Shown: piece by piece, positions 5,079-54,073 of the stretch
Layout: every line of letters begins with the position of its first letter
Numbering within the stretch: position 1 is the stretch's first letter
DNA from: Erythrobacter sp. QSSC1-22B
Lineage (GTDB): Bacteria; Pseudomonadota; Alphaproteobacteria; Sphingomonadales; Sphingomonadaceae
Reading direction: 5' to 3'
Assembly: GCF_001678665.1 (NCBI RefSeq)
Contig: NZ_LZRP01000001.1
Coordinates: forward strand, 434,001 to 498,000
DNA: 64,000 bases
Notes under the pieces: model-generated
What the model saw: only the letters and a program-made list of their open reading frames with translations
Told to the model about the DNA's origin: nothing
Databases searched by the model: none
Translations under genes and position numbers: made by a program

Positions 5079-6028
5079 AGAAGCCCCCTGCGCAGGCGCA
5101 ACAACAGCCACAGGAAAAACGGCGCCCCGAGCAGGCTGAGCGCGATCCCGAGCCGCAGTTCGGTGACCAGCGGCAGCACCCGCACAATGCTGTCGGCAAT
5201 TAGCACCAGCAGCGCGCCTGCCAGCGCGCTCGGCAGGATCAGCCGCGAGGGGCGGCGGTCGGTGAAGGGGCGCACCAGATGCGGGACGATCAGCCCGACG
5301 AAGCCGATGATCCCCGCCACCGCGACGCTGGCGCCCACGGTCAGCCCGACCCCGATCACCAGCAGCCACAGCAGGCGGGTGGTGTCGATCCCGAGGGAAC
5401 GCGCGACCGGCTCGCCCAGCGTCAGCGCATCGAGCGCCGGCCCGGCGCGCCACAGCAGCGCCACGCCGAGCGCGACCAGCGGCGCGGCAAGCCAGACCTC
5501 GCGCCAGCCGCGGTCGGTCAGCGCGCCGTTGAGCCACATCACGATCTCGCCCATCGCGAAGGCGTTGGGCGCGAGGCTGATCGCCAGCGCGGTAAGCGCG
5601 CCCGCGAGGCTCGCCACCATCAGCCCGGCGAGCGTGAACAGCGCGATCCCGCCGGTACGCCCGGCGATCGCCGCCAGCAGCGCCATCGCCCCGCCCGCTC
5701 CGATCAACGCGAACAGCGGCAGCAGCAGCGGCGAGGCGGCGTAGCCGAACCACAGTGCCACCACCGCACCCAGCGCCGCGCCGGGTGCGATACCGAACAG
5801 GCCGGGGTCAGCGAGCGGATTGCGCAGATAGCCCTGCATCGCCGCCCCCGCCGCGCCCAGCCCACCGCCAACCACAATGGCGAGCAGCGAGCGCGGCAAC
5901 CGCAGTTCGGCGAGGATCAGTGCCGCATTCGGGGTGCTTGCGGGGTCGAGCCAGACGCGGCCCGCGAGCAGCGAGAGCGGCAGAGCGAGCGCGAGCAACA
6001 GCGCGAACAGGGTGATGGCGCGGGTCAC
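5075..6028 (-). CDS. btuC: Cobalamin ABC transporter permease (BtuC/FecCD family)
   Basis: Inner-membrane permease of 317 residues, hydrophobic throughout as expected for the ten-helix FecCD fold. Family landmarks include LRLPRSLLAIVVGGGLGAAGAAMQ near the N-terminus, NPLADPGLFG, and GFVGLIVPH before the ATPase-contact region. GTG start at 6028 overlaps the binding-protein stop (GTGA), and its own stop overlaps btuD. It forms the channel half of the importer with BtuD and receives substrate from the lipoprotein BtuF. Substrate is inferred from the upstream cobalamin riboswitch. Confidence 0.85.
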   Translation of the reverse strand: MTRAITLFALLLALALPLSLLAGRVWLDPASTPNAALILAELRLPRSLLAIVVGGGLGAAGAAMQGYLRNPLADPGLFGIAPGAALGAVVALWFGYAASPLLLPLFALIGAGGAMALLAAIAGRTGGIALFTLAGLMVASLAGALTALAISLAPNAFAMGEIVMWLNGALTDRGWREVWLAAPLVALGVALLWRAGPALDALTLGEPVARSLGIDTTRLLWLLVIGVGLTVGASVAVAGIIGFVGLIVPHLVRPFTDRRPSRLILPSALAGALLVLIADSIVRVLPLVTELRLGIALSLLGAPFFLWLLLRLRRGLL

Positions 6029-50326: not shown

Positions 50327-50698
50327 TTACTTCGGCCGCTTGGCCCCGTACTTGGAACGCGACTTGCGGCGATCCTTGACGCCCTGCGTATCGAGCACGC
50401 CGCGCAGCACGTGGTAGCGCACGCCGGGAAGATCGCGGACACGACCGCCGCGGATCAGCACGACGCTGTGCTCCTGGAGGTTGTGGCCCTCGCCGGGGAT
50501 GTAGGAGATGACCTCGCGCTGGTTGGTCAGGCGAACCTTGGCCACCTTGCGCAATGCCGAGTTCGGCTTCTTCGGGGTCGTGGTATAAACACGGGTGCAA
50601 ACGCCGCGCTTCTGCGGGTTCTGCTCCATCGCAGGGACCTTGGACTTGGCCTTCTGCGGAACGCGGCCCTTGCGGACCAGCTGGTTGATCGTCGGCAT
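50327..50698 (-). CDS. rpsL: 30S ribosomal protein S12, with Arg88
   Basis: Decoding-centre protein, 123 residues. [20 protein letters not shown] holds the wild-type Lys43. In [16 protein letters not shown], residue 88 is Arg where E. coli and many bacteria have Lys; the codon is CGC. First gene of the str operon; its leader contains a 10-bp hairpin 25 bases before the ATG. Confidence 0.98.
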
Positions 50699-50722
50699 GA
50701 TTTCTCACTTCACCTTCGTTTT

Positions 50723-50748
50723 CCGGTCATGCGGTAGTGCATGACCGG
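50723..50748 (-). promoter_or_regulatory. Perfect 10-bp hairpin in the rpsL leader
   Basis: 50723-50732 pairs with 50739-50748, loop of 6. It lies about 25 bases upstream of the rpsL ATG, just 5' of GAAGGTGAAGTGAG, the likely ribosome-binding stretch. It may modulate translation. Confidence 0.5.
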
Positions 50749-50859
50749 GGACGCCCCTTCCGGGCGCGAAACCGGTGCCCACTTTCGCTGAAGGGGCTCG
50801 GTCCATGCCAGTCAGGACTGATGGATTGGGCGGGACAGGGATGAAGGGTTATCGGCCAG

Positions 50860-50946
50860 TCCGTCATCCCGGCGAAAGCCGGAATATGGTTCCGCAAGCT
50901 CGAGGCGCGCGGAACGCGAATTCCGGCGCGGGGCCGGAACGACGAC
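50860..50946. repeat. REP-like palindrome in the rpsL upstream region
   Basis: CGTCATCCCGGCGAAAGCCG starts a unit whose CCGGC-GAAA-GCCGG hairpin (50869-50882) is a motif of dispersed palindromes common in proteobacterial intergenic DNA. A second GCCGG half-site near 50933-50943 lets the ends pair partially. Confidence 0.5.
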
Positions 50947-51159
50947 TGGACCTGAAACACTCCACCCGCGGCCCGCAAAAGCCACCGGGTTACTTTACCG
51001 GCTGCCCCGGGCGACCCACCCCCGCAAGGAGGCGACCGCCGCAATAGAAAAGAGCCTCGCGCTTGCTAGCGACAAGGCCCCGGGACGAACCGGCAATGTT
51101 CAGCTCTATCTGACCACCACAGGTTTCGCGCGGACGCGGGGCCTGTCGTGGATGGGGCG

Positions 51160-51188
51160 CGCTTAGGGGGATTCGGGGTGGGGGTCAA
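51160..51188 (-). promoter_or_regulatory. Promoter candidate of the str operon
   Basis: Minus-strand TTGACC, 17 bases, TAAGCG, followed by CGCC. The weaker second match before rpsM reads TTGACG-N17-TAAGCG-CGCC, so the same pattern recurs at a ribosomal operon. It would give a leader of about 450 bases. Confidence 0.45.
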
Positions 51189-51279
51189 GGTGTGGGTTGG
51201 GCGTGCGTCATCTAGCGAGAGGGTTGACGGACCCTTAAGTCCGGCGGAATGTCTTAGATTAAAGAACATGAGGGGCAAC

Positions 51280-52839
51280 ATGGTAAGAGCTGCAACGAAG
51301 AAGAAACCCGCTACCAAAAAGGCCATCGCGCCGGTGAGCGCCCCCGCTTATACACTTAAGCAGTTCTATCTCGACGACCACCCTAGAACCCTGTTCCCTC
51401 TAGATACAAATAAAATCCTAATTGAGAACGGTTCGAAAAAAATATCTGAATTCATTAACGAAATGATATCCGAAAATAGGCATTTCCTTCCTCAAAGAAC
51501 TGTCCATGCGAACAAAGACAGGTATCATCTCCGAAGGACGGCTAAGCTCGATCCAGTGGCAGAATACTACTTATACGACATTGTATTTCGTAATAGAAGT
51601 AGGTTCCGCAAACCGCATTCAGAAAAGAAAAAGCACTTTGGCTACAGATTTGAAGGAGGCAAGCCCCAGCACTCTTCGTCAAGCTATCGCAAGTTCAAAG
51701 AAACCGTTTGGGTTGAGGGAATATTTGAAGAGAATAGAAAGTATTTAAGCTTCGATATTGCCTCCTACTTCAACAATTTATACCATCACGACCTGAACGC
51801 GTGGTTCTCAGCTCTTGGCCTGAATGACCCTCAAGACTCTATAAACTTTGGTAAGTATCTAAGGGAGATTAATGCGGGGAGATCTTTAGATTGATTGCCC
51901 CAAGGCTTGTATCCTGCGAAAATGATCGGAAACGACTTTCTTCGATTTATTGAGGAAAACTGCTTGCTGAAATCCGAACATATTTATCGGTTTATGGATG
52001 ATATTTGCCTTGTAGATGAATCTCAGGCGATATTAAATCGAGACTTCGATTTAATACAGAGGCTTTTAGGTCAAAAGGGCTTGTCCATAAACTCGGCCAA
52101 AACATCTAGCGGCAAACCGGACGAGTTCGATTCAGCAGATGAGGACATTAACGAGCTTAAGAAAAAGCTACTTCAGCGGCGCCGAGAAGTTATCATTTCT
52201 CACTATGATGAGATCGATGAACCAGAGGACGAAACATCTGAACAAGGCGAGGATTTACCTCCCCTCACTGAGCAGGAAATCGAATTTGCTACAAGCCTCC
52301 TTGCTAGCGACCACGTGACTGAGGAGGACGCCGAATTAGTCCTTATCGTTATGAAAGACCACGTTAATCGGATTAAGGGTCACTTAAATCTCTTTGCGGA
52401 GAGATTTCCACACCTCGCTAAGAATTTCTATTTGCTTTGCGGTGAGGCTGACGACAAAGAACATGTCGCAGATGTCGTAAGGGACCTTCTCGTTTCAGAT
52501 AGCTTCGTCGGAGAATATCAGCTTTTTTGGTTCGGAATGATGTTAGACAGATATCTACTCGATACTTCGAAAGCTAAAGATATCACTTCTTTGCTTTATG
52601 ACCATGCCAATGCCACCGATATTACCAGAGCGAAGATTTTGGAGATTCAGGACAATCGTTTCGGACTGCCGGAATTTCGAGAGGGGTTCCTTCGCGAAGG
52701 TCGATCTGATTGGCTAGCTTGGTCATCTGCCGTTGGTTCGCTGGCGCTAGGCAAAGACGCCCGAAATTATCTCTTAGGATATTTCAAGAATGGTTCAGTT
52801 ATGAACGCATTGGTCGCCGATATTCTCGAGACGATGTAA
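51280..52839 (+). pseudogene. Defence-type reverse transcriptase interrupted by an in-frame TGA
   Basis: Two reading frames in the same phase (51280-51894 and 51895-52839) form one 519-codon RT. Catalytic Asp159 lies in YLSFDIASYFNNLYHHDL, FMDD at 238-241 and the thumb-like KGLSINSAKT at 266-275. The stop TGA is codon 205, immediately before LPQGLYPAK, the RT motif normally written GLPQG. The C-terminal half (about 300-519) is helical, in the manner of AbiA/AbiK and UG/DRT antiviral RTs; there is no maturase or group II intron domain. ATG 51280 has AGGGG upstream. AT-rich, unlike all neighbours, so horizontally acquired. The class is not assignable from memory. Confidence 0.8.
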
Positions 52840-52971
52840 TCCTTGGTGGGTCCAATATAGACGCTGCGTGTTGCCGTGCAACGCCATCGGCGTCGTTCCT
52901 GCGCTAGACCAAAGAGCCCGTTCAATGAAGCGTGAACCCGCCGCCCACACCGCACCTTGGCCTAAACTTCC

Positions 52972-53253
52972 CTAAACTTCCGCCTTCAGCCACTTCCCCG
53001 CGCCGCTGCTCAGCCCCTTGAACTTGGGCCAGCCCTCGGGCTCGTCCTCAAGCGGCGCGCAGAGCAGCGCGGTGCCTTCGGGCAATTGCCATTTGATGCG
53101 GTGGTAGAGCTTCGAGCGGGTCAGAGCCGAGCGGACCAGCCACAGCCCCTCGGCCAGCGGATGCGCGTCGCCGTGGAGTGTGAAACCCGCGGGCACCTGC
53201 GCGGCGGGGTCGTGCCAGAGGAGGTAGAGCGTCTCGGGTCCGGTATCCGCCAA
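52972..53253 (-). CDS. Hypothetical small protein downstream of the LysR gene
   Basis: A 93-residue soluble protein of unknown function (LYLLWHDPAAQVPAGFTLHGDAHPLAEGLWLVRSALTRSKLYHRIKWQLPEGTALLCAPL). No signal or membrane segment. It follows the LysR regulator by 4 bases on the same strand, so it is probably translated with it. Its stop lies within two tandem copies of CCTAAACTTC (52961-52980). High GC, so it belongs to the core chromosome and not the RT island. Confidence 0.6.
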   Translation of the reverse strand: MADTGPETLYLLWHDPAAQVPAGFTLHGDAHPLAEGLWLVRSALTRSKLYHRIKWQLPEGTALLCAPLEDEPEGWPKFKGLSSGAGKWLKAEV

Positions 53254-53257
53254 GCGC

Positions 53258-54073
53258 TCACTCCGCCTTGAGGAAATCCACCAGGTTCTTCACCTTGCGG
53301 GTGCGCCATTGCGGGAGCGGGGCGACCAGCCAGTAGGCGCGGCGGCCGGGCTCGGGGCCTTCGAGCACTTCGAGCCGGCCATCGGCGATCGCGTCCTTAA
53401 CCAGCAGTTCGGGGAGCACCGCGCGGCCCAGCCCGGCGAGCGCGCTCGACAGCGCCTGCCCGGCGTTGGAGACCGCGACATGCGGCTCGGCACCCTCGGG
53501 CAGCCCTGCGCCCCAGTCGATCCAGCGCTCGGGCGGCTTGCCCTTCGCCTTCCCCTTCCCTTCGGCGGGCTTGGCAACCGTGACGCGCGCGGCGGGGGCC
53601 AGCTCGACCCCCTCCAGCTCGCCCGGGCCATCGACCAGCCGCACCGCGCAATCGAGGTTCGCCTCGGTGAAATCGGCCAGCTCGTCGGCGACGAAGGAAA
53701 AGCGGACATCGGGGTATTCGCTCGCGAAGGCGGCCAGCCGCGGGGCGAGCCATTGCGCGTAGAACTCGCGCGGCGCGGCGATGGTGTAGCGGTCGCTCGC
53801 CTGCCCGGCCTGCATCGCCTGGACGCTCTCCTCGAACTTGAGGAAGCCCTCGCGCAAGGCATCGAGCCCCGCGCCGCCTTCCTCGGTCAGCTCGAGCCCC
53901 TTGCTGGTGCGGCGGAACAGGACGGTGCCGAGGTGATCCTCGAGCGCGCGGATCTGCTGGCCGACCGCGGCGGGGGTGACCGCCAGCTCGTCCGCGGCGC
54001 GGGTGAAGCTGAGGTGCCGCGCGGCGGCATCGTAAACGCGCAGGGCGTTGAGGGGCAGATGGGTGCGCTTCAT
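53258..54073 (-). CDS. LysR family transcriptional regulator (GcvA-like)
   Basis: DNA-binding regulator of 271 residues. Winged-helix N-terminus LPLNALRVYDAAARHLSFTRAADELAVTPAAVGQQIRALEDHLGTVLFRRT is of the GcvA subtype; the remainder is a periplasmic-binding-like effector domain, shortened relative to the usual 300 residues, with a Lys/Gly-rich insertion near 170-185. The ligand and targets are unknown; the divergent spacer with four 15-bp repeats and the divergent ppk are candidates for control. Confidence 0.85.
   Translation of the reverse strand: MKRTHLPLNALRVYDAAARHLSFTRAADELAVTPAAVGQQIRALEDHLGTVLFRRTSKGLELTEEGGAGLDALREGFLKFEESVQAMQAGQASDRYTIAAPREFYAQWLAPRLAAFASEYPDVRFSFVADELADFTEANLDCAVRLVDGPGELEGVELAPAARVTVAKPAEGKGKAKGKPPERWIDWGAGLPEGAEPHVAVSNAGQALSSALAGLGRAVLPELLVKDAIADGRLEVLEGPEPGRRAYWLVAPLPQWRTRKVKNLVDFLKAE

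Follow-up and report, generated by a model that had tools for sequence, protein, structure and literature searches.

A Drt5-type reverse transcriptase gene interrupted by a single in-frame TGA in an Erythrobacter genome

Introduction

When a gene carries the motifs of a reverse transcriptase (RT) on both sides of a single stop codon, is it a dead gene, a gene whose stop is in some way decoded or bypassed, or an intact gene with an error in its sequence? This question is raised by a stretch of 64,000 nucleotides from Erythrobacter sp. QSSC1-22B (RefSeq assembly GCF_001678665.1, contig NZ_LZRP01000001.1, positions 434,001 to 498,000 of the forward strand), hereafter the window. The original prediction, made from the letters and their open reading frames, had described, in an AT-rich island, an RT of the defence type whose C-terminus is helical and whose frame a single TGA breaks, and had proposed that it was either recently killed or conditionally read through.

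Results

A Drt5 reverse transcriptase in two halves

On the + strand of the window, an ATG at 51280 opens a frame of 520 codons, including the TAA that ends it at 52839, and the sole internal stop of this frame is a TGA at codon 205, immediately 5' of the residues LPQGLYPAK (table 1). An alternative in-frame ATG exists at 51268; the better Shine-Dalgarno-like match belongs to ATG 51280. Translation and alignment bear out the predicted layout, with motif A (FDIASYF, containing D159) 5' of the TGA and FMDD (238-241) 3' of it in the same frame, and with neither half holding a further stop or frameshift. Indeed, D159, M239, D240 and D241 are invariant in an alignment of nine sequences (the window gene and eight relatives), as expected of an RT palm.

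Searched apart, both halves match the PADLOC Drt5 models (1.1e-71 for the first and 4e-112 for the second), and they cover positions 1-177 and 179-483, respectively, of the 484-position NCBIfam model NF041750. Each half alone scores below the curated cut-off of 550 bits for this model (232.3 and 362.2 bits); with the stop passed over, the score is 617.1 bits. Since both halves match Drt5, a frame spanning the stop lies far beyond chance. By sequence, then, both are Drt5 (UG16), a known family of anti-phage RTs, which sharpens the ‘defence-type RT’ that had been proposed. Elsewhere the signal is fainter: the second half scores 27.1 bits with Pfam RVT_1, slightly below the cut-off of 29.6, the first half has no credible match in the Pfam scan, and among solved structures the best sequence match to the second half has an E of 0.11. 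A profile search had been named beforehand as one test that could overturn the prediction; run with Pfam, PADLOC and NCBIfam, it leaves the placement in the RT superfamily standing.

Table 1. Features of the drt5 locus, in positions of the window.
Feature	Position	Strand	Basis
AT-rich stretch, no DNA match in 40 other genus genomes sampled; drt5 is the only gene recognised inside	51197..52958		genus DNA comparison, GC profile, ORFs
Drt5 (UG16) reverse transcriptase gene with one in-frame TGA	51280..52839	+	NF041750, 617.1 bits; PADLOC Drt5 on both halves
First half (204 aa), with the N-terminal region and motif A of the palm (D159)	51280..51891	+	PADLOC Drt5 match, alignment
In-frame TGA, codon 205	51892..51894	+	relatives' column Cys in 6/9, Phe in 3/9
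Second half, 314 codons and TAA: LPQG, FMDD 238-241, predicted helical C-terminal part	51895..52839	+	PADLOC, NF041750, alignment; helices from structure model

A structure model built with the stop read as Trp is of moderate quality (mean pLDDT 66, pTM 0.56) and predicts an RT-like core followed by a run of helices (331-518). Around the stop (198-216) pLDDT falls below 50, and the stop would sit in a loop, modelled with low confidence, that connects predicted helices 184-198 and 212-226. The best 20 Foldseek matches of this read-through model are chains of DRT4/UG15, DRT6, Abi-P2, AbiA and AbiK (E from 3.1e-8 to 2.7e-5).

A lone gene in a foreign-looking stretch

The predicted contrast in composition is real. 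The drt5 gene has a GC content of 43.9% (GC3 47%), whereas eight genes measured around it have 61-72% (GC3 79-90%); among the neighbours are those that we take, from their translations, to be tuf, fusA, rpsG, rpsL, a LysR-type gene, ppk and ppx. The foreign stretch is slightly wider than the gene, as DNA matches to the genus end at 51196 at the furthest (query 870) and resume at 52959 (query 2633). Among 41 genus genomes, its own included, no other genome matches the stretch in between, and its flanks are matched by 39 of the 40 others; the remaining one (G788, 75% complete) matches nowhere. Because the DNA search scored seven first-look candidates per genome and G788 gave no matches, a protein search of the genus was added: with the second half as query, it found the gene in its own genome and in none of the 59 others.

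Across the genus, what lies between rpsL and the LysR-ppk pair varies, so that drt5 has the appearance of a solitary cargo gene at a permissive site. Neither the 93-aa gene nor the LysR-type gene beside it has a match among the PADLOC models. The 93-aa gene (52972-53253), to the right of the island, is reversed relative to rpsL in six genus genomes, namely those that carry both on one contig (G778, G789, G791, G793, G797 and G806), and the island thus sits at a local rearrangement. A separate peculiarity was seen in one relative from the genus (L079), where a region of approximately 230 bases upstream of rpsL (564-793) is repeated approximately 1.18 kb further on (1742-1972), the pieces being 97-100% alike, with two small ORFs between the copies, one of them presumably cold-shock-like. 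Part of this region is present in the window at 50951-51115; no repeat of it was found within 50650-53300.

Beyond the genus, Drt5 is rare too. The second half found matches in three of 397 genomes of the taxonomic family, full only in its own, the two others being approximately 30% identical over 76 and 86 residues (E of 1.9e-4 and 4.5e-4). In the class, Drt5 exceeds the cut-off in two of 385 genomes, own genome included in the sample (29 genomes matched, and only these two were used), and in the phylum a match at E of 1e-60 or better occurs in one of 398, again its own. Relatives in named records are mostly from Alphaproteobacteria: Porphyrobacter, Mesorhizobium and Bosea metagenome-assembled genomes (MAGs) and Asticcacaulis, with further copies on plasmids of Phaeobacter, Roseovarius and Cupriavidus; one record, H2, was left out as a near-copy of another, H1. 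No sister copy above approximately 57% identity was found among them. DNA likeness to plasmids amounts to 102 bases at 74.5% in two Phaeobacter plasmids and nothing more. A phage origin finds no trace in 50,697 phage records, of which none matched the first half, and one of 88 candidate stretches from viral contigs encodes a relative (L082), which is uninterrupted.

The stop column and the state of the gene

In nine relatives the column of the stop holds a sense codon, for Cys in six (L005, L006, L007, L008, L009 and L010) and for Phe in three (L011, L019 and L082); stop-free copies thus exist in other bacteria. Two residues had been suggested as the one replaced by the TGA: Cys, the second choice, agrees with the majority of relatives, and Gly, the first choice, occurs in none.

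If the stop is set aside, the conserved residues of the window gene show no detectable loss. A leave-one-out comparison was made of eight sequences, omitting L010 (a near-copy of L009) and the frameshifted L008. Of the 113 columns in which the other seven do not vary, the window gene breaks three, one of 48 before the stop and two of 65 after it; the seven relatives each break one to seven of 111-117. We also simulated drift with the stop fixed and substitutions placed at random, counting as success a gene that had gained no other stop and had broken three more columns at the most. The probability of staying so intact was 0.083 at 30 substitutions, 0.022 at 40 and 0.003 at 60. With no other decay seen in either analysis, the proposal of a recently killed gene fits. 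The window gene does, however, hold eight private inserted residues (at 12-14, 152-153 and 313-315), more than any of the seven relatives, with none or one each, and this counts against a recent inactivation.

Absence of further decay means that the stop is recent, or false, or harmless, and the sequence alone presents the same picture for all three. An error of sequencing, a tolerated stop or a recoded stop would equally leave no decay, which counts against recent inactivation as well. Nor can the stop be dated by comparison, as the nearest sister is at most approximately 57% identical.

The false stop is the reading in which the TGA is a base-calling or assembly error and the Drt5 of the organism is intact. 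A single codon would be involved in a gene that otherwise looks constrained, and the assembly is a draft of 49 contigs; yet the TGA is internal to a contig longer than 750 kb (C1, which reaches at least base 757,658), the genome scores 100% for completeness and 0.22% for contamination, and errors of a single base are infrequent in draft assemblies. We consider an error unlikely, though of the competing readings it is the foremost.

Another interrupted copy came to light in the Bosea MAG (L008:4437-5926), where a frameshift falls at about base 5500-5525 of the locus; the parts on either side of it are each approximately 70% identical to L006, in different frames. Interrupted Drt5 loci therefore number two of the ten read, the window's included, although a MAG may carry assembly errors. 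No stop-interrupted Drt5 was found in the accessible text of the literature searched.

Is the UGA decoded?

A TGA opposite Cys in relatives is the usual signature of Sec/Cys pairs in selenoproteins. As the TGA faces a column in which Cys is the commonest residue, the selenocysteine machinery was sought. SelA has no match in the genome, and the SelB model gives eight matches, none of which reaches the cut-off; the highest-scoring of them is the window's EF-Tu gene. The tRNA-Sec model (150 of 572 first-look candidates scored) gives nine matches, the best of which, at 51.4 bits, exceeds the cut-off of 47. ARAGORN, however, calls this best match a tRNA-Ser (anticodon TGA) and assigns the remaining ones to Ser, Leu, Gly, Tyr, Cys and Met; the model also matches all 14 control genomes, above the cut-off in five, and is thus unspecific here. 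Of the host SelA, SelB and tRNA-Sec and the stem-loop after the UGA that mark a selenoprotein, none was found. Selenocysteine was accordingly rejected; this reading is already contradicted, unless the machinery falls in a gap of the draft, and we give it next to no chance.

Another reading is near-cognate read-through at some rate, which would yield little of a potentially self-harming full-length enzyme until conditions change. The columns after the stop are kept as well as those before it, and a full-length protein would retain all motifs. Against this stand the tRNAs of the host: of 46 matches to a tRNA model, 45 exceed the cut-off (ARAGORN calls no tRNA at the 46th), none of these 45 has a UCA anticodon in ARAGORN runs on the stretches holding all 46 matches, and the one Trp tRNA reads CCA. 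An opal suppressor tRNA was therefore rejected. RNA around the stop folds like its shuffles (z of 0.19, 0.28 and 0.35), and since all nine relatives have a sense codon, nothing marks the stop as a conserved device. We hold read-through of this kind to be very improbable. A changed genetic code was rejected too, the eight neighbouring genes having no internal TGA and three of them ending in TGA.

The cell could also make two polypeptides, the second starting at the TTG right after the TGA (51895), which would associate as a split enzyme. The TTG abuts the stop, and the stop would fall in the loop predicted between two helices. The Shine-Dalgarno-like match before this TTG (4/6 at 12 bases) is nevertheless weaker than that of the start at 51280 (5/6 at 6 bases), the later TTG at 51964 (4/6 at 8 bases) would drop LPQG, the break parts motif A from FMDD, and no relative is split at the same place. 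With folds like shuffles and a weak site before TTG 51895, a recoding structure or restart site was rejected, and a split enzyme strikes us as improbable in the extreme.

No noncoding RNA partner was recognised, the single Rfam match being sub-threshold (17.2 bits against 60, E of 3.3) and taken as chance. Promoter and terminator scans found one site each, below the shuffle means, and no promoter for drt5 was recognised. In sum, conditional read-through as originally proposed is unsupported: SelA and an above-threshold SelB were not found, none of the tRNAs was assigned to Sec or would read UGA, the RNA folds no better than its shuffles, and directly after the stop there is no strong restart site.

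Discussion

Recent inactivation ranks first among the readings, as no sign of decoding came to light and errors of a single base are infrequent. In our judgement it is quite probable that a single-gene Drt5 was gained horizontally and then recently inactivated by one nonsense change. Horizontal gain, putatively into the variable stretch beside the rpsL operon, is suggested by the GC contrast, by the absence of the gene from the 59 other genus genomes and by its being fully matched, among 397 genomes of the family, in its own genome alone. Recency is suggested by broken columns no more numerous than those of the relatives, and by the simulation, in which 40 neutral substitutions leave such intactness in approximately 2% of runs. 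Translation would end after 204 residues and leave a fragment of approximately 24 kDa that has motif A and lacks FMDD and the C-terminal helices; such a fragment would presumably neither polymerise nor defend.

The window gene, broken by its stop, is most likely a case of an ordinary kind of gene loss in a family already known. It is a remnant of Drt5 in a lineage with few other members of that family, being found in its own genome only among the 60 of the genus and the 397 of the taxonomic family, and it gives the impression of a defence gene observed shortly after it was gained and lost. Were the stop functional, it would be a new way to restrain a self-harming defence enzyme: if the in-frame UGA leaked, or if a second chain were started at the TTG beside it, the RT would be kept nearly silent, with a trace of DNA-synthesising enzyme until phage attack alters translation. 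Nothing found here supports a functional stop, and we regard this idea as very unlikely.

Comparison with known systems

In its accessible text, PMC13275509 reports that purified DRT1, DRT5S and DRT5L synthesise DNA without a template, that DNA is bound to the DRT1 and DRT5 proteins, and that synthesis by DRT5S and DRT5L is primed on the protein itself. By analogy, an intact Drt5-type enzyme in the window would have made DNA template-free and protein-primed; a commentary (PMC13213688) states, in the part available, that a dedicated mechanism is not yet established for DRT5. The same accessible text of PMC13275509 words class 3 of the UG/Abi RTs as an RT joined to a nitrilase or phosphohydrolase domain, and tests DRT5S and DRT5L as class 3. 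In the window gene, the Pfam scan of both halves gives RVT_1 and weak chance matches, with no such domain, so that its domains differ from the class 3 wording, which, as far as that text goes, may not bind for short Drt5.

The read-through model would share an RT core followed by a helical part with DRT4/UG15, DRT6, AbiK, Abi-P2 and AbiA, although at 11-14% identity only and with a mean pLDDT of 66; by sequence these are separate families. Much closer are the Drt5 of Phaeobacter inhibens (WP_260094571.1) and Roseovarius pelagicus (WP_263049277.1), both annotated as antiviral reverse transcriptase Drt5, with 52% identity over the first half and approximately 47% over the second. Unlike the window gene, they have no internal stop and are plasmid-borne, and an annotated ATP-binding protein gene lies directly 5' of drt5 on their plasmids (L009:2361-3461 and L010:331-2142), where the window has none. 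With Drt5 itself (NF041750, PADLOC Drt5), or DRT type 5, which the accessible part of PMC7699616 equates with UG16, the window gene shares a similar length, positions 1-483 of 484 with a score above the cut-off across the stop, motif A and FMDD, as a single gene; it differs in the TGA one column before LPQG, which denies it the uninterrupted frame of the family, and in its private insertions. It is a member of Drt5 by descent, and not an intact one.
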